In this document: positions 1-60,775 of the stretch, piece by piece | How the letters are laid out: each line of letters begins with the position of its first letter | How positions within the stretch are numbered: the stretch's first letter is position 1 | Origin: Theocolax elegans | Lineage: Eukaryota > Arthropoda > Insecta > Hymenoptera > Cerocephalidae | NCBI GenBank assembly: GCA_026168455.1 | Contig: CM047431.1 | Location: forward strand, 46,007,466-46,071,465 | Direction of reading: 5' to 3' | Length of the DNA: 64,000 bases | Made by a program: the position numbers and the translations under genes | Notes under the pieces: generated by a model | Databases searched by the model: none | What the model was told of the DNA's origin: nothing | What the model saw: the letters and a program-made list of their open reading frames with translations, nothing else

Positions 1-2398
<2,398 letters not shown>

Positions 2399-24408: not shown

Positions 24409-25650
24409 CTAGCTAAAATCCTCACTCGCTCACGCTCGCTCGCTGAAAAATCATTATCTAATAGATAATATTAAATTAAACTAAAAAATATTTTATTATT
24501 TAACTACATTCAATTATTATTTATTAAATTGTACCCATATAGATTTATTATCATATGTATAATAATTAATGAATTTATTATTATTACACGATGAATTAAA
24601 ATGATAATATTAAAAAAATAGAAATTATCTATAAAAATAATAATTTTTGTATGAAATAGAGTTTAATTATTATTGCAATAGCACTTTTCATGAAGGAATT
24701 ATTATTGATTTTTTATTGTCTTGTGATATGTATACATCCTTTGCAAATAATTTATTTATTTATTTAGCAGTACTTATTAATTTGTGTGTTATTGGTAATT
24801 TGGTAATAGCACTTTTTATACACTTAGTAAAATATTATAAACTATATTACAAAAAATCTATATAAAATAATCTATATTAAAAATTACTATATTGTATAGG
24901 AAAAGTGTGACATCTCAGCAATATAATAATTTTTGCTATGTTATATAGTAAAATTTAGATATACTATCTTTTAATATCCAATATCGTAATTTTTGATATT
25001 CAATATAGTAATTTTTATTATATAAGTCAGCAAATTTTATTATTCAATCTGGTATTTTTTAAATGCGAATGTAAGGAAGTAAAAATGAATTATATTTTGT
25101 CTTTAATTAATTCGAAATAGAATGTATATATTGGGGGAATTCCATTTGTCAATTGAGTACTACAGAAGCATTTAATATTTGGAGATTTAATTATATACTA
25201 TTCTTACGCAGTTGATCGCAATTTTTATTCACTCGCATATATTTATTCATTACACTTATTAGTCACTAACTTAAATATTGTTTCAATCGCTATCATTGAA
25301 ATACGCTGAACGGAAGATACATTTTCGCATAATAACTAAATATTTTTTTTTTTTTTTTTTTTTTTAGAAGGGACGTGGAGGGGAAATCTTCTAAAAGACA
25401 CCCTCTAGATGGATTGAGGGTAGTGTCGGATTCACAGATGTGCCTACCGACTAAAACCCCTCCACGTAGGTTGCCAACCCGAAGGTTATAAACCATGAAA
25501 GAAGAGAAGATGGTGGGCCGACTGCAGAAGGTCGACCACTCGCGCTAAAAAGCGAAACAAGAAGAAGAAGATGAAGAGTTTTTTGAACCAGTTGGGGTGG
25601 TAGAATGAAAAGAAGCGACCAAGAAGGTAGGGGGAGTGATGAGTGTTAGT

Positions 25651-28467
25651 TTAGTTTGGATGGATTAGGTGACAGGGTCTGCTGATGAGGTCATAGGATT
25701 TGCAAGAGCAGTTGGAGAGAGGTTGGATGGTGGGATTTGGGTGGTTTTTTATGGTGTTGTGAAGGTTTTCGGAGTAAGTGCGGGCGGCTTCCTCAATAGA
25801 AGGGATGTTGGTTTCTGTAAGGATTTGCCTGTTTCGGATGTACCATGGGATGTTCAGAGCTGCGCGTAGGAGTCGCATGTAGGTGCCTTGGAGTTTGGAT
25901 ATTTTTGGAGGGCGGGCTATGCCCCAGATTGGGATAGCGTAGGAACAGATGCTTCTAATGATAGCATTAAAAGCTCTGGATTTGGTACTTTGGGAGACAG
26001 TGGGATTGTTAAAGAAGGGTTTGAGTTGGACAAAAGCTCCGATTGCTTTGTTGCGGGTTGAGGTGATGTGTTTGGACCAGGTGAGTTTGTTGTCGAAGAT
26101 GACTCCCAAATATTTTGCGGAGCTGCTCCATTTGATGCGGTGATTGTTGATGAGGATATTGGGAGGGGTGCGTCTGCGTCGGGAGAAGAAGATGGCTTCG
26201 GATTTTGTTTCGTTGATATGGAATTTCCAGGTGAGGTACCAGTTGAGAAGGATGGGAATGAATCTGTTAAGACGGGAGGCGCACGGAGCAATCTGTCTGG
26301 AGGAGTAAAGGAGAGCGACGTCGTCAGCAAATTGAGCGACCTCGATCCCCTTTTCGGTAGGGATATCATGGCAGTAGATGTTGAATAAGGAGGGAGAGAG
26401 TTTGGAACCTTGGGGAACCCCAGCAGTGATGGGATGAGGATCAGAGAGGGAGTTTCCTACGCGAACTCGTAAACTCCTGTTTGAAATGAAGGATTTTATT
26501 AGGCCGATGAGGTAGTCGGGGAATTTGAGTTGGATCATTTTGTAGATGAGTCCGTCGTGCCAGACTCTGTCGAAGGCTTGTTTGATGTCGAGGAGGAGCA
26601 TGGATGTGTGGTTGCGTCTGTTATGTTTGTCTGTTAGGAATTCGGATACGCGGAGAAGTTGGTGGACGGAGCCATGTTGTTGTCTGAAGCCGTGTTGGAA
26701 GTCGGGGAGGATGTTGTTTTCGGAGATATGGGTTTTTAGGCGAGTGAGGAGGATGTTTTCGGCTACTTTGCTGATGGAGTTGAGAAGACTAATGGGACGG
26801 TAGCTGAGTGGAGAGCTGAGTGGTTTGCCTGCTTTGGGCAGGCAGATGATTGTGGCTTGTTTCCACGCAGTAGGGAAATATTGGAATCGCATCATAGCGT
26901 TGACGATGTTACAGAGGGCAACAATATGGATGCGAGGGAGGATTTTGAGGATGCCATTGCCGATGGCGTCTGGTCCGGGAGCTTTTCTGGTTTTTAGGGA
27001 GCGGATGGAATCGTGGATTTCTTTTGGTGAAGTAGGTTTGAATGTGGAGGAGAGGCTAGTGTGGTTCAGTACAGTGTTAGAGATGTGGTTATGGAGGTCG
27101 GTGAGGTGAGGAGCGCTCTCGAAGGGGGAGCATTGCTCCTCTAGTGATCTGGCGAAGATGTCAGCCTTTTCAGAGTCAAGAGAGAAGGATCTGCCGTCAA
27201 CGGAGAGAGGAGGAAGGTGGGCTTGGCGGTTACGGAGGGCTTTGATAACCTTCCAGCAACTTTTAGGATTAGCTTCAGCTTCGGCGATGTAGTTGTCGAA
27301 AGCTGCATTGTTAGCTTTGTGGAGGAGTTTTTTGAGTTTTCTTTGGATGGAGTTAAGGACGCGGCGGGAACTGTTGTGTCTGTGAGTTTGCCAGTGTCTG
27401 CGTGCTTTGTTTTTCTTTTGGATGAGTGATTTTATGTCTGAGGAAAGTTTAGTGGAACGAGGAGTAGAGGTTTGCCACTGGGTGGCTTTTTGGACGGCGG
27501 AAGAGATTTCGTTTGTTAGGTGAGAGATTGCTGAGTCGATGTCTGAGATGGATTGTATGGTTGAGCATTTAAACTGTGAGGATTCAAGGAGGTATCTGAG
27601 GTGAAGGTGGTCTGTTTTTGGTATTAGGGGTGGTGTATGTTCAGGATTAGCTGGAATTTCTAGGAATACTGGGTTGTGGTCTGAGCTGAGCATTGGGAGG
27701 GTCCATGGATCTTTGGTTGTGGATAGATGTTTTGTGAGGAGGATGTCCAGAATGTCAGGGCGGTGGGAAGGATTTTCGGGAATGTGTGTAGGATCGGAAG
27801 GCGATTCTATGGTGATATTGTGGCGGAGAGATGACTTGAGTAGAGTGGATCCCTTTGTGTTAATTGATAGGCAACCCCAGGATGTGTGTTTGGCGTTGAA
27901 GTCACCGGCGACGATAGTTGGGAGTGTAGAGTTGAAGAGAGGAAGGAAATCTAGGATGTCGTTGACTTGGGGAGGAGAGTAGGCGGAGAAGATTCGGATG
28001 GGACCGGGCTGCGCGTCAACTTCAATGCCGACAACTTCGCAATTGTAAGTGTCGGTGCTGATGGCTTTGTGGCGAAGTGAGTTGCGGACCAGGATGGCTA
28101 CGCCTCCTCCTTCGGAGGAGATGCGGTCCTTCCTGTAGGTGGAAAAGTGAGGAGCGAAAAGTTTGTTTTTGGGTTGGAGGTGTGTTTCTGAGATGCAGGC
28201 GATGTCTATGGAGTGTTGTTCTAGGGCGTCCAGGAGTTCGAGGCGTTTGTTAGGAGGGCGGATGCTTCTGGCGTTCCAGCTGATTATTCTTAGCGATTTA
28301 TGGTTGTGAAGTGATTGATGATTGTATTGCGGTGATGAAGGAGGTGAAGAAGTTACGAAAAAGCTGTTGTATTTGTGGTGATTGAAAGGGATCAAGGTTT
28401 GTGTTTTGTGGAATAAGTGGTTTCGGGGTAGGTAAAGGTTGCCGAGTTGGTGAGGAGTGAGAAGCAT
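25651..28467 (-). CDS. LINE ORF2: endonuclease-reverse transcriptase (938 aa)
   Basis: The protein nicks target DNA and copies its RNA there (target-primed reverse transcription, known for the family). An APE-type endonuclease occupies about residues 60-270, with WNARS (64-68), SETHL with E94, GDFNAKH (188-194) and the catalytic SDH (262-264). The reverse transcriptase follows, with KAPGPD (495-500), YRPISLL (556-562), DIKQAFD with D627, GVPQGSKLSP (683-692) and the catalytic FADD (713-716). A Cys/His-containing tail (CSCKSY..CHLIH) follows and no RNase H is seen. The length is normal for Jockey. The first 56 or so codons overlap ORF1 in another frame and the endonuclease begins just after the overlap, so the true start could be this Met or a reinitiation event. 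No stop or frameshift is present, so it may be active. Confidence 0.95.
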   Translation of the reverse strand: MLLTPHQLGNLYLPRNHLFHKTQTLIPFNHHKYNSFFVTSSPPSSPQYNHQSLHNHKSLRIISWNARSIRPPNKRLELLDALEQHSIDIACISETHLQPKNKLFAPHFSTYRKDRISSEGGGVAILVRNSLRHKAISTDTYNCEVVGIEVDAQPGPIRIFSAYSPPQVNDILDFLPLFNSTLPTIVAGDFNAKHTSWGCLSINTKGSTLLKSSLRHNITIESPSDPTHIPENPSHRPDILDILLTKHLSTTKDPWTLPMLSSDHNPVFLEIPANPEHTPPLIPKTDHLHLRYLLESSQFKCSTIQSISDIDSAISHLTNEISSAVQKATQWQTSTPRSTKLSSDIKSLIQKKNKARRHWQTHRHNSSRRVLNSIQRKLKKLLHKANNAAFDNYIAEAEANPKSCWKVIKALRNRQAHLPPLSVDGRSFSLDSEKADIFARSLEEQCSPFESAPHLTDLHNHISNTVLNHTSLSSTFKPTSPKEIHDSIRSLKTRKAPGPDAIGNGILKILPRIHIVALCNIVNAMMRFQYFPTAWKQATIICLPKAGKPLSSPLSYRPISLLNSISKVAENILLTRLKTHISENNILPDFQHGFRQQHGSVHQLLRVSEFLTDKHNRRNHTSMLLLDIKQAFDRVWHDGLIYKMIQLKFPDYLIGLIKSFISNRSLRVRVGNSLSDPHPITAGVPQGSKLSPSLFNIYCHDIPTEKGIEVAQFADDVALLYSSRQIAPCASRLNRFIPILLNWYLTWKFHINETKSEAIFFSRRRRTPPNILINNHRIKWSSSAKYLGVIFDNKLTWSKHITSTRNKAIGAFVQLKPFFNNPTVSQSTKSRAFNAIIRSICSYAIPIWGIARPPKISKLQGTYMRLLRAALNIPWYIRNRQILTETNIPSIEEAARTYSENLHNTIKNHPNPTIQPLSNCSCKSYDLISRPCHLIHPN

Positions 28468-29662
28468 GTATGGGTCTGGTTTTAAGGGCGTCAGAGTAGG
28501 ATCGAGTTTTAGGAATTGGTTTTTGAGGAGCGCTTGGTGGTTTCGGAGTGTGTATTGTTTGGGTGGTTGTTTTTGATTCTAGAGTTAATGGTTTGGCTTG
28601 GATGGAATGAGCGGAATGTTTTTTGGGGACTTTTGGGCATCCACCGTAGGTGGCACGGTGGGGTCCTTTGCAGTTAGCACAGGTGGGAGAGGAGTTTTCT
28701 TTGTCCTTAGAAGGACAGGTTGCAGTTGCGTGGTTGCGGCTGCAGAAGGCGCATGTCCATAGGGCATGGCAGTAGTTTGCGGTGTGGAAAAAGGATTGGC
28801 AGCGGCGGCATTGCGGGATGGAGTTTGTTTTGCGCTTGGCTTCGACTTTAACGTTGAGGCCGGAGATGGATTTGATGTCATAGATGGATTTGGCCGAGGA
28901 GCAGGATGGGTCGAGGTAGACAGAAATGAGGGGCCAGGTAACTCCGTTCTTGCCCATGCGATGGATGCGTTTAACAGCGGGGATTTTGGTTTTGAGTTCG
29001 GAGAGGATGACAGGGTCGGGAATTGATTCGGCGATACCGCGGATGATGACGACCATGTCTTGGTCTTGACGGAGTTGGTTTTGGGTATGTAGAATCTTTT
29101 TCTTTTCAAACTGGGAGGTGATATAACGGAAGCCGTCGACGGTTTCGGGATAGATGAGGATGGCATCGGAAGTGCAGACTGATCTGCGGATGGGGATGTC
29201 CGCGCTTTTGAGAGCGGAGTGAATTTTGGGCCATAGTTCTTTTTGGAGTAGGCGGATGGGCGGTGGACTGTGTACTGGACGGTCTGGGTTTTCTTCTTCT
29301 TCTGAAGAAATGGAGAAGCTTTTATCGGAGAGATTGGAGCTTTGAGAAGGAGTTGGACTATAGGTTCGTGGACGTTTAGAGGATTTTTGTTGGAGGTCGT
29401 TTTTGTCAAAGATGAGGTTGTCTACTTGCATTTGGGTTATTTGAGGAGTGGATTGTGTCTGTGTAGGAGGTTGGGGAGAGATTGTGTTTGGTGGAAGTGG
29501 AGTTGAAGTGCAAGCAGTGTTAGGAAGGCTAGTGAGTGCGGATTCGTATGCGGAGAGAGCTGAGCGAATTTCAGAAATAAGAATTAAGAGTTGTTCGTGT
29601 GTGCAGGAGTGGGGGGGTGGAAGTTGAGAAAGGATATTGGAATTTTCTGGTGAGCTCGGCAT
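28298..29662 (-). CDS. LINE ORF1: gag-like nucleic-acid-binding protein (454 aa)
   Basis: This is the RNA-binding chaperone-type partner of ORF2. The N-terminal 140 residues are Ser/Pro/Thr-rich and probably disordered, with an acidic patch EEEEN near 121. Residues about 145-280 match the pattern of the PRE_C2HC region of insect Jockey ORF1s (RRSVCTSDAILIYP, VVIIRGIAE). Three zinc knuckles follow: CRRC..H..C (285-298), CAFC..H..C (304-316) and CANC..H..C (328-342). The Pro/Lys-rich C terminus overlaps the start of ORF2 by 170 bases in a different frame. A short upstream frame starting at 29783 overlaps the ORF1 start and could act as an uORF, which is inference only. Confidence 0.92.
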   Translation of the reverse strand: MPSSPENSNILSQLPPPHSCTHEQLLILISEIRSALSAYESALTSLPNTACTSTPLPPNTISPQPPTQTQSTPQITQMQVDNLIFDKNDLQQKSSKRPRTYSPTPSQSSNLSDKSFSISSEEEENPDRPVHSPPPIRLLQKELWPKIHSALKSADIPIRRSVCTSDAILIYPETVDGFRYITSQFEKKKILHTQNQLRQDQDMVVIIRGIAESIPDPVILSELKTKIPAVKRIHRMGKNGVTWPLISVYLDPSCSSAKSIYDIKSISGLNVKVEAKRKTNSIPQCRRCQSFFHTANYCHALWTCAFCSRNHATATCPSKDKENSSPTCANCKGPHRATYGGCPKVPKKHSAHSIQAKPLTLESKTTTQTIHTPKPPSAPQKPIPKTRSYSDALKTRPIHASHSSPTRQPLPTPKPLIPQNTNLDPFQSPQIQQLFRNFFTSFITAIQSSITSQP

Positions 29663-58374: not shown

Positions 58375-58394
58375 AATCAATCAATCAATCAATC
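58375..58394. repeat. (AATC)n microsatellite
   Basis: Five tandem units abutting the next foldback element. Confidence 0.85.
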
Positions 58395-58566
58395 TAACGA
58401 CTCTAAGAACTCCAAGTTGCTCGCTCGAAAAGGCACGACAATTCGCCGCGTATCAATCCCGAGGACAACATTATGAAGGCCACAAGCCGCCAAACATAAA
58501 CCAAAAGAAGAAGCAAATAAAATACTAAGTTATAAAATTGAAAATATTTTAATAAGAAAGAAAGAA

Positions 58567-58603
58567 ATCAGTGGGGCGCAGACGGTCCCTGCCCCAGACA
58601 CAC
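58567..58603 (-). ncRNA. hammerhead ribozyme, 5' half (incomplete)
   Basis: On the - strand this reads GTGTGTC (cleavage triplet GTC, complement of 58597-58599), then stem I TGGGGC, a 13-base loop, stem I GCCCCA and CTGAT, after which the core is lost. Its GTGTGT strand would pair with the CACAT strand at 58738-58742, which shows that both are parts of one ancestral ribozyme. Confidence 0.6.
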
Positions 58604-58683
58604 AAGACAATATTATTGAATCAAAATAATGATAAACTTAAAATTTTGGTATCGTAAGAACGAATGAACGGAGCCTATATAAG

Positions 58684-58745
58684 CAGGGACCGTCTGCGCC
58701 CCACTGATGAGTTCTGGCAGACGGTCCCAAGACGAAACACATGGA
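58684..58745 (+). ncRNA. hammerhead ribozyme, 3' half (incomplete)
   Basis: CTGATGA (58704-58710) is preceded by the stem I strand GCCCCA (58698-58703). It is followed by stem II, whose closing G58711 pairs with C58733, then GAAA (58734-58737) and a stem III strand CACAT. The partner strand with the cleavage triplet is absent upstream on this strand, so self-cleavage in cis is not expected. Confidence 0.65.
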
Positions 58746-58928
58746 CTTAAAATTTCTTTCTTTCTTTCTTATTAAAATATTTTCAATTATAACTTAGTAT
58801 TTTATTTGCTTCTTCTTTTGGTTTATGTCTGGCGGCTTGTGGCCTTCATAATGTTGTCCTCGGGATTGATACGCGGCGAATTGTCGTACCTTTTCGAGCG
58901 AGCAACTTGGAGTTCTTAGAGTCGTTAG

Positions 58929-59782
58929 ACGTTAGCTCAGCAAGACCGACAATATTCTATATTAATTTAAAAACTTTTGCCTGGGCGAGAAAAATTATAT
59001 TTTTAATGAGAATGATTTTATTAAATAAATAAAAAATACAACAATAGATATTTTATGAAGAAACCTGTAAAATAGTGTATTGTTATAGAGATATAATGCA
59101 CAATGTGATACCAAGATTGAACAATATCAATCGTTTGTAAGGAACGCTGCAAATAATAAAAATTGTTCGCGAGTGCAAAACTTGTGTAAGAATTGGTAAT
59201 AAAAAATCGTAATTACTAATTTTGACTTATGCATGGCGTGGTTCGCGTTCCCAATTTCACTGTACCAAAGTAGAAGCGTTCTAGCAATACGATTCCATAA
59301 AAAATGTAAGTCTATGTATTAGCTAATTTTGTTATCTTATATGAAAAGACCAATATTCTATTATTATTAATTCGTTACGTAAAAGATAAAAGTTAAATAA
59401 CATTTCGCATAAAGTAATTGCAATTTTCATGATAATTGAATATACGATCGTAAATAAAGATATTTTAAATAACTGTTTAATATTGTTATTAACCAGAAAG
59501 GATCCCGTTCGATTAACACGTTATAAATGTAAATGATGGCTAACATTTCTAGCACGGTAATTGCAGAATATATTATCAAAGCTTTAGAAAATTTCGCAAT
59601 TAATAGTATTTTTTTATCTCACTTGCGATTATTAATTGCATAGTTTTTGCGGAGAATTTTCGTTAGAGCACCCCCAAAAAGAGCAAGGTAGGTGTGTACT
59701 TGTAAAAAATGAATTCGATCTATACTTGTCAGGTATAATCGTCAAAGTTGGAGTTACCTACTGCACACTGCGGAGCATTTTT
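58929..59782. other. stretch between ribozyme elements
   Basis: No gene supported. A possible 21-base micro-exon of the host gene lies at 59667-59687 and is discussed as a finding. Confidence 0.45.
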
Positions 59783-59909
59783 CATTTTTTTTTTTAAATA
59801 AAATTTATCGGGCTTTGCGAACCAATATGCTTTATTAAGCAAGGTTTTTACTCTTCGTCCACTATGGTTGGTGGAAGTTCTAGAGTAAACCTTTGAAATT
59901 TATAAAATT

Positions 59910-59978
59910 GGCGTTTCGACCACAGCACTCTAGCTTTGGTCTCCTCAGTAAGGAGCTAGAGGCCTTCCTTAGACGCCC
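59910..59978 (-). ncRNA. hammerhead self-cleaving ribozyme 1
   Basis: The sequence is the same as in ribozyme 2. Stem III is GGCG/CGCC, the cleavage triplet is GUC (complement of 59972-59974), stem I is UAAGGA/UCCUUA with an 11-base loop, then CUGAGGA, stem II GACCA/UGGUC and GAAA. All invariant core positions are present. Strand order is that of a type III hammerhead. Confidence 0.88.
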
Positions 59979-60296
59979 GTCGCAGATAGAAAGCGACGAC
60001 AAATGAAAGAAGTGCGGCTATATATATGCCTTGTTATCGACTGTTTCTCTAACGGGTAGAGAGAACAGTCGTATCCTCCTGGTGGTAAGAACTCCCGCCA
60101 ACCAAGAGCGCGACGTTTTTCACCCGAAGTCGCGAGTTTTAAGAAAAAACAAAAAATTAAACGTTCGCTACAGGTTATTTCAAAATAAAATTTATCGGGC
60201 TTTGCGAACCAATATGCTTTATTAAGCAAGGTTTTTACTCTTCGTCCACTATGGTTGGTGGAAGTTCCAGAGTAAACCTTTGAAATTTATAAAATT

Positions 60297-60365
60297 GGCG
60301 TTTCGACCACAGCACTCTAGCTTTGGTCTCCTCAGTAAGGAGCTAGAGGCCTTCCTTAGACGCCC
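60297..60365 (-). ncRNA. hammerhead self-cleaving ribozyme 2
   Basis: Intact core and three stems as in ribozyme 1. Predicted cleavage is between complements of 60359 and 60358. Together with ribozyme 1 (cut between 59972 and 59971) it would release a 387-base RNA from a - strand transcript. A TATATATAG box lies about 40 bases upstream on the same strand (complement of about 60404-60416). Confidence 0.88.
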
Positions 60366-60541
60366 GTCGCAGATAGAAAGCGACGACAAATGAAAGAAGT
60401 GCGGCTATATATATGCCTTGTTATCGACTGTTTCTCTAACGGGTAGAGAGAACAGTCGTATCCTCCTGGTGGTAAGAACTCCCACCAACCAAGAGCGCGA
60501 CGTTTTTCACCCTTCATTTGTCGTCGCTTTCTATCTGCGAC

Positions 60542-60610
60542 GGGCGTCTAAGGAAGGCCTCTAGCTCCTTACTGAGGAGACCAAAGCTAGAGTGCTGTGG
60601 TCGAAACGCC
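60542..60610 (+). ncRNA. hammerhead self-cleaving ribozyme 3 (inverted copy)
   Basis: Stem III GGCG (60543-60546) pairs with CGCC (60607-60610). The triplet GTC ends at 60548 (predicted cleavage after it). Stem I is TAAGGA (60549-60554) with TCCTTA (60566-60571). CTGAGGA is 60572-60578, stem II is GACCA (60579-60583) with TGGTC (60598-60602), and GAAA is 60603-60606. Every conserved core base is present. The unit's promoter half is missing here. Confidence 0.9.
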
Positions 60611-60775
60611 AATTTTATAAATTTCAAAGGTTTACTCTGGGACTTCCACCAACCATAGTGGACGAAGAGTAAAAACCTTGCTTAATAAAGCATATTGGTT
60701 CGCAAAGCCCGATAAATTTTATTTTGAAATAACCTGTAGCGAACATTTAATTTTTTGTTTTTTCATTTTTTTTTT

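Follow-up and report, generated by a model that had tools for sequence, protein, structure and literature searches.

The repeat cluster in the window (the whole 64-kb stretch of DNA that was analysed) is probably one insertion of a 387-bp non-coding retrozyme, which carries predicted type III hammerheads and is likely copied by a Penelope-like enzyme. Judged by its sequence, the cluster is one retro-insertion with two arms. The 387-bp element is not a Penelope-like element by membership, yet its ends behave like those of one. The initial annotation had offered "retrozyme or Penelope-like"; the connection to Penelope was upheld, but the two are not necessarily alternatives, as the unit is non-coding while its ends look Penelope-made.

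Layout and hammerheads of the window insertion

The first arm (59796..60512, sense on the minus strand) consists of 1.85 head-to-tail units with a period of 387 bp, located at 59796-60174 and 60175-60512. Its outer 3' end is of the S type (see below) at unit position 176, and an A-run extends the alignment to 184. The second arm (60513..60764, plus strand) runs in the opposite direction, comprises 0.65 unit (252 bp) and has an outer 3' end of the L type at unit position 216. The 17-bp target-site duplication TTTTTCATTTTTTTTTT is repeated exactly on either side of the insertion, with its left copy at 59778..59794 and its right copy at 60759..60775; the latter overlaps the arm end by 6 bp, which makes this junction ambiguous. 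The A-rich flank of the window copy is part of this duplication. The copies in the window are 98-99% identical to each other. Two direct units and an inverted truncated one had been annotated initially. This layout stands, but the inverted unit is a second arm and not an extra repeat, given that the arms are arranged head to head at all 28 two-arm loci compared below.

Type III hammerheads are predicted at 59910..59977 and 60297..60364 on the minus strand and, in the inverted arm, at 60543..60610 on the plus strand, with cuts expected between 59972 and 59971, 60359 and 60358, and 60548 and 60549, respectively. They are identical over 68 nt. Stem III is formed by GGCG/CGCC plus U-A, stem I by UAAGGA/UCCUUA and stem II by GACCA/UGGUC, followed by GAAA; the core reads CUGAGGA and the cut site GUC. 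Since stem III is the open helix, the order is that of type III. Loops I and II are complementary in sequence (CUCUAGC and GCUAGAG, respectively). A strict type III descriptor (CUGANGA, GAAA, a UH cut site, stem I of at least 5 bp, stem II of at least 4 bp and stem III of at least 5 bp with A15.1-U16.1 counted in) yielded exactly these three matches on both strands of the window and none on both strands of 40 dinucleotide shuffles. This bears out the three full hammerheads in type III order that had been annotated, and at the level of sequence the three predictions are confirmed as genuine and beyond chance. The antisense of the unit contains no hammerhead by the same descriptor.

The covariance-model match on which the initial annotation had also staked its reading was not obtained, and on this point the result counts against it: Rfam reported no hammerhead in the window at the gathering score, and at a loose threshold only type I fitted, with 16.8 bits against a cut-off of 34. 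Likewise, a search of 20 sources with E up to 1 gave no Rfam hammerhead at two loci of the related family B (L076 and L086). That Rfam misses this hammerhead is putatively due to its long paired loops. Nested folding favours a hairpin over the hammerhead, and the loop-loop pairs also form in a nested hairpin. The hammerhead with its loop-loop duplex comes within about 1-1.4 kcal/mol of this hairpin by a simple sum, which is not a pseudoknot calculation. The whole monomer folds better than all of 100 of its own shuffles (z -4.1). A Rfam match to MIR5638 (217 bits; own cut-off 500) was attributed to the inverted arms folding back on each other and dismissed as an artefact.

The unit has a GC content of 42.6% and is non-coding, with a longest ATG frame of 18 aa in the trimer examined; a frame for reverse transcriptase and GIY-YIG endonuclease was not found in it. 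As annotated initially, a TATA-like sequence is present in both minus-strand units (GGCATATATATAGCC at 60403..60417 and a second copy at 60016-60030). It lies approx. 40 nt upstream of the predicted cut and may act as a promoter. The inverted part-unit is without the stretch that holds it, and the family B unit has the similar sequence TATATATA. The annotated AATAAA was also found in all three window copies, inside a GCUU/AAGC hairpin; we do not regard it as a poly-A signal in use because none of the printed ends of the examined insertions carries a poly-A tail. Between the hammerhead and the S end lies a hairpin-forming stretch (60237..60273 and 59850-59886 on the minus strand, 60634-60670 on the plus strand), which is kept in family B and in more distant relatives of the L063 type, and which is a possible recognition element for the enzyme. 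The U-rich tract TTTTTTGTTTTTTC immediately precedes the L site (60143..60156, minus strand; also 60751-60764, plus strand).

Several other features were observed in the window. A two-frame LINE with strong GC skew lies at 25374-29662 on the minus strand and encodes a 454-aa ORF1 with PRE_C2HC and a 938-aa ORF2 with endonuclease and reverse transcriptase; its nearest named relative is from Ranatra chinensis (34%). Rfam matched R2_retro_el directly 3' of ORF2 (43.6 bits, 25374-25468), although the endonuclease of this LINE is of the APE type. An inverted repeat at 58393-58929 has 143-nt arms, which are 99% complementary and 251 nt apart. At 2300-2365 (minus strand), a decayed relic of a hammerhead region of the family B type was found (74% over 65 nt).

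Copies and families in the genome

The genome searched comprises 658 Mb in 1277 contigs. It is likely that of an insect; its COX1-like nuclear fragments contain TGA codons in frame. The exact 37-nt core occurs 214 times in it, dispersed over many contigs, compared to 0 matches for the reversed control. The mobile repeat with many near-identical copies proposed at the outset is thus present, and the absence of any other genomic copy, which would have spoken against it, is contradicted by dozens of loci. Viral contigs gave 0 exact matches to two patterns.

A second family, B, was reached via the sole match to RF00163, which at 32.4 bits is below the cut-off (best 73 of 80241 candidates). Its 393-bp units are about 69-70% identical to those of family A, to which the window copy belongs. 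Among the complete hammerheads in the fetched loci, 110 of 129 are intact in family A and 16 of 24 in family B. Pairing was counted over 30 distinct hammerheads (16 from A and 14 from B): 594 of 630 cells are paired, a value reached by none of 1000 shuffles, though kinship inflates such counts. Between the families, both sides have changed in three pairs, namely pair 2 of stem II (A-U to U-A) and two loop-loop pairs (one from U-A to C-G, the other from C-G to U-A); each of the three may reflect one event. One further double change, in stem III, was seen in a single sequence. Family B keeps the predicted hammerhead through these compensatory changes in stem II and the loop-loop pairing. The change in stem II is specific to the predicted hammerhead fold, unlike those in the loop-loop pairs, which also fit the nested hairpin.

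A more distant relative was found at L063, a Penelope locus, where a 71-nt stretch within 205-330 matches the unit at 74.6%. It corresponds to unit 74-141 and lies beside a Penelope fragment. Including itself, 40 matches of this kind occur genome-wide, the others at 73-87%, and they probably represent a third, older family.

Insertion ends, arms and mode of copying

For the comparison of insertions, 36 stretches (L009-L044) were fetched from clusters of the best 40 of 793 candidates. The loci are therefore the best-scoring ones, and older and odder insertions are under-sampled. L017 and L018 show a segmental array (periods of roughly 3 kb) in which the same retrozyme insertion occurs five times; they were left out of locus counts, which leaves 34 family A loci. 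Two arms are present at 28 of these, in head-to-head orientation in every case. At 26 of the 28, the two outer ends fall at unit 175-184 (termed S) and at 211-222 (termed L), one at each; the remaining two (L024 and L025) each have one outer end off these sites, and pairs of two S or two L ends are absent from the 28 two-arm loci. At the six loci with one orientation, the sense 3' end is always at S or L. The inner ends are scattered over the unit; of the 56, 5 fall within the windows of S and L, where 5.5 are expected. The arms overlap by 0-5 bases at 18 of the 28 junctions and by 15-16 at two, and are separated by a gap at eight. The gaps of L017 and L023 were considered as autonomous elements and rejected, the former having no frame of at least 100 aa and the latter several short frames. 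Target-site duplications of 12-17 bp were found at 27 of the 34 loci, while seven are without one of at least 12 bp; only 0.5% of 1639 mismatched flank pairs reach even 10 bp.

Family B (22 loci) follows this rule less strictly than family A. Its ends cluster at 197-202 and 225-239, and its six two-arm loci are all arranged minus-then-plus. Four of them (L079, L082, L088 and L096) have one end of each type and, by eye, direct repeats of about 13-16 bp. Of the two exceptions, both ends of L083 are of the S type, one of these belonging to an arm of 30 nt, while a single end of L095 lies off-site.

Such ends are known from Penelope. In the lizard element, reverse transcription starts at two internal sites next to each other, and the sequence that separates these sites corresponds to the 30-40-bp tail of genomic copies; AT-rich DNA is cleaved and extended on both strands, according to the parts of PMC11167929 available. 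Rotifer copies show inverted pLTRs, one of which bears a 31-bp tail, and duplications of 8-10 bp (excerpts of PMC3846280). The two hallmarks, start sites 30-40 nt apart and head-to-head arms, were observed here at 26 of 28 and 28 of 28 two-arm loci, respectively. As the insertion ends resemble those of Penelope-type retrotransposons, a Penelope enzyme is the likely copier.

The initial annotation had suggested looking for autonomous relatives with GIY-YIG and reverse transcriptase. Penelope loci are resident in the genome, but 30 GIY-YIG loci contain no hammerhead of the retrozyme kind. As a source of the hammerhead these loci were rejected, with one weak type I-like match (L055) among the 30. 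At least 98 GIY-YIG matches were obtained from the best 150 of 1713 candidates, and two frames tested also match RVT_1 below the curated cut-off (E 1e-4 and 5e-6). Among the matches listed, neighbours within 6 kb are oriented -/+ in 13 cases, -- in three, ++ in two and +/- in none. Most ends of one resident Penelope family fall at 801-808 and 832-834 of its reference and most of another at 1043-1052 and 1084-1086, with some elsewhere in both; the end clusters are about 26-31 and 32-43 nt apart in the two families. No resident Penelope family with the start-site region of the retrozyme was found, the 71-nt stretch at L063 being the only notable similarity.

The sequences of the arms bear on the template. 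At five diagnostic sites outside the T tract, the two arms disagree at none of 118 locus-sites readable in both, and none of 298 arm-site cells is mixed. Private variants, each restricted to a single sampled locus, are fixed in the two arms alike: 167T at L013, 65G at L015, 26A at L023 and 354G at L033, the latter in 11 of 11 units. From this agreement, both arms were probably copied from one RNA or a clone of it, and an RNA circle would account most simply for both the agreement and arms of up to ten units. However, two observations count against a circle: 34 variants are of intermediate frequency, compared to 142 single and 19 fixed, and two forms of the tract occur within L040. At L023, the core is mutated to CUAAGGA in all seven readable units of both arms, one of them in a separate downstream segment, and the insertion is nonetheless multi-unit and two-armed. 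Its template would thus not have been cut by its own ribozyme, which argues against a self-cleaved circle. This core has 11 matches at five places genome-wide; these do not demonstrate a mobile lineage with a dead ribozyme, as the copies at the four places other than L023 have diverged (77-97% identical).

For the element as a whole, the following course is proposed. Tandem copies would be transcribed, and cleavage at the hammerheads would release monomers of 387 nt from the RNA, to be circularised by a host ligase. At the target, a Penelope-type enzyme would cleave one strand of AT-rich DNA at about 12-17 bp from its cut in the other. Both 3' ends set free in this way would serve as primers on one RNA, at the adjacent sites S and L. 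Copying might then run around the RNA for up to about ten laps until the two cDNAs stop at scattered points and are joined head to head, often at short microhomology. That both ends of one Penelope-type cut prime on the same hammerhead-made 387-nt circle, a twin rolling-circle integration, is put forward tentatively, at slightly less than an even chance. If true, each insertion would descend clonally from a single RNA molecule and have an S end and an L end, and animal retrozymes would be tied to Penelope enzymes by mechanism. Two results for lizard Penelope in PMC11167929, as far as excerpted, count against parts of this model: no difference in start sites between the strands was seen in vitro (Frangieh 2024), and hammerhead mutants still inserted.

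Somewhat unlikely, but the nearest competitor, is the same Penelope machinery acting on a long linear multimeric transcript of a homogeneous array, with the hammerhead as a passenger or active at another step. The multi-unit arms of L023 with a mutated core in every hammerhead fit this reading, and the existing arrays are homogeneous, as their transcripts would then be too. On the other hand, the fixation of 354G in all 11 units of L033 would need an unsampled source array or a bottleneck of one monomer, and arms reach about 10 units even though 110 of 129 hammerheads look intact. Target-primed reverse transcription by an L1-type LINE with twin priming was the initial reading of the window copy, which on its own resembles a twin-primed 5' inversion, and the window does contain a seemingly intact LINE (25651-29662). 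The comparison across loci disfavours it and makes it very improbable: the printed ends have neither a poly-A nor a simple 3' tail, the outer ends are two preferred internal sites and the inner ends are not adjacent, with 5 of 56 in the end windows where 5.5 are expected. Still less probable is a satellite that was generated from DNA directly, through tandem duplication with inversion and without retrotransposition. While the array of L017 and L018 repeats one insertion five times and the intermediate-frequency variants suggest some duplication of units after insertion, dispersal over many contigs, target-site duplications with preferred ends and the compensatory changes in the ribozyme speak against it.

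Comparison with known systems

The element shows the features of a retrozyme, namely a hammerhead motif per unit, non-coding tandem units and dispersed insertions with target-site duplications. Metazoan non-LTR retrozymes are described as 170-400-nt non-coding tandem units with type I hammerheads and less than 50% GC, for which a circular RNA intermediate has been proposed (Cervera and de la Pena 2020, PMC7229834, in part). The unit resembles them in size, in GC content and in target-site duplications longer than those of plants, but its hammerhead is of type III with loop-loop pairing. In the available text of that paper, Penelope-like elements are a strong candidate for the mover, and so far only that; family A now offers direct insertion anatomy at dozens of loci.

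Plant LTR retrozymes share the type III hammerhead and the non-autonomous state. A circular RNA intermediate is described for them and is putative for the present element. They differ in their circles of 600-800 nt, LTRs with primer-binding and polypurine motifs, a GC content above 55% and 4-bp duplications instead of mostly 12-17 bp (excerpts of PMC7229834 and PMC7761336). Ribozymes on both polarities, as expected of viroid-like or HDV-like RNA, are not found here. Some satellites carry a ribozyme on one polarity only.

Type III hammerheads with a loop-loop pseudoknot have been described in Drosophila pseudoobscura, other flies and termites, and type III hammerheads also in HDV-like RNAs of termite and toad (PMC7936874, in part). 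The present ones are alike in type, loop-loop pairing and occurrence in what is likely an insect genome. Those in termite genomes are isolated motifs with a longer helix I and an extra hairpin; retro-inserted tandem arrays do not figure in the available parts of that paper, according to which hymenopterans, hemipterans and a cockroach yielded no hammerhead of its type. PMC3088659 describes pseudoknotted hammerheads of each of the three types, and a review refers to a study in preparation on insect elements whose hammerheads are of type III (PMC7761336), both as excerpted. No report of the present combination was found in the literature covered, subscription papers and preprints being outside its scope.

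With Penelope-like elements, the retrozyme shares two adjacent start sites with a tail, head-to-head copies, AT-rich targets and duplications (PMC11167929 and PMC3846280, in part). Unlike them, it has no reading frame, and its duplications of 12-17 bp exceed the 8-10 bp of rotifers (PMC3846280). Many Penelope-like elements carry hammerheads as well, which the same excerpts describe as minimal type I variants. As each insertion resembles the copy of a single RNA molecule, the circle step can be put to the test, and the element adds a loop-paired type III hammerhead to a group whose animal members have been described with type I.
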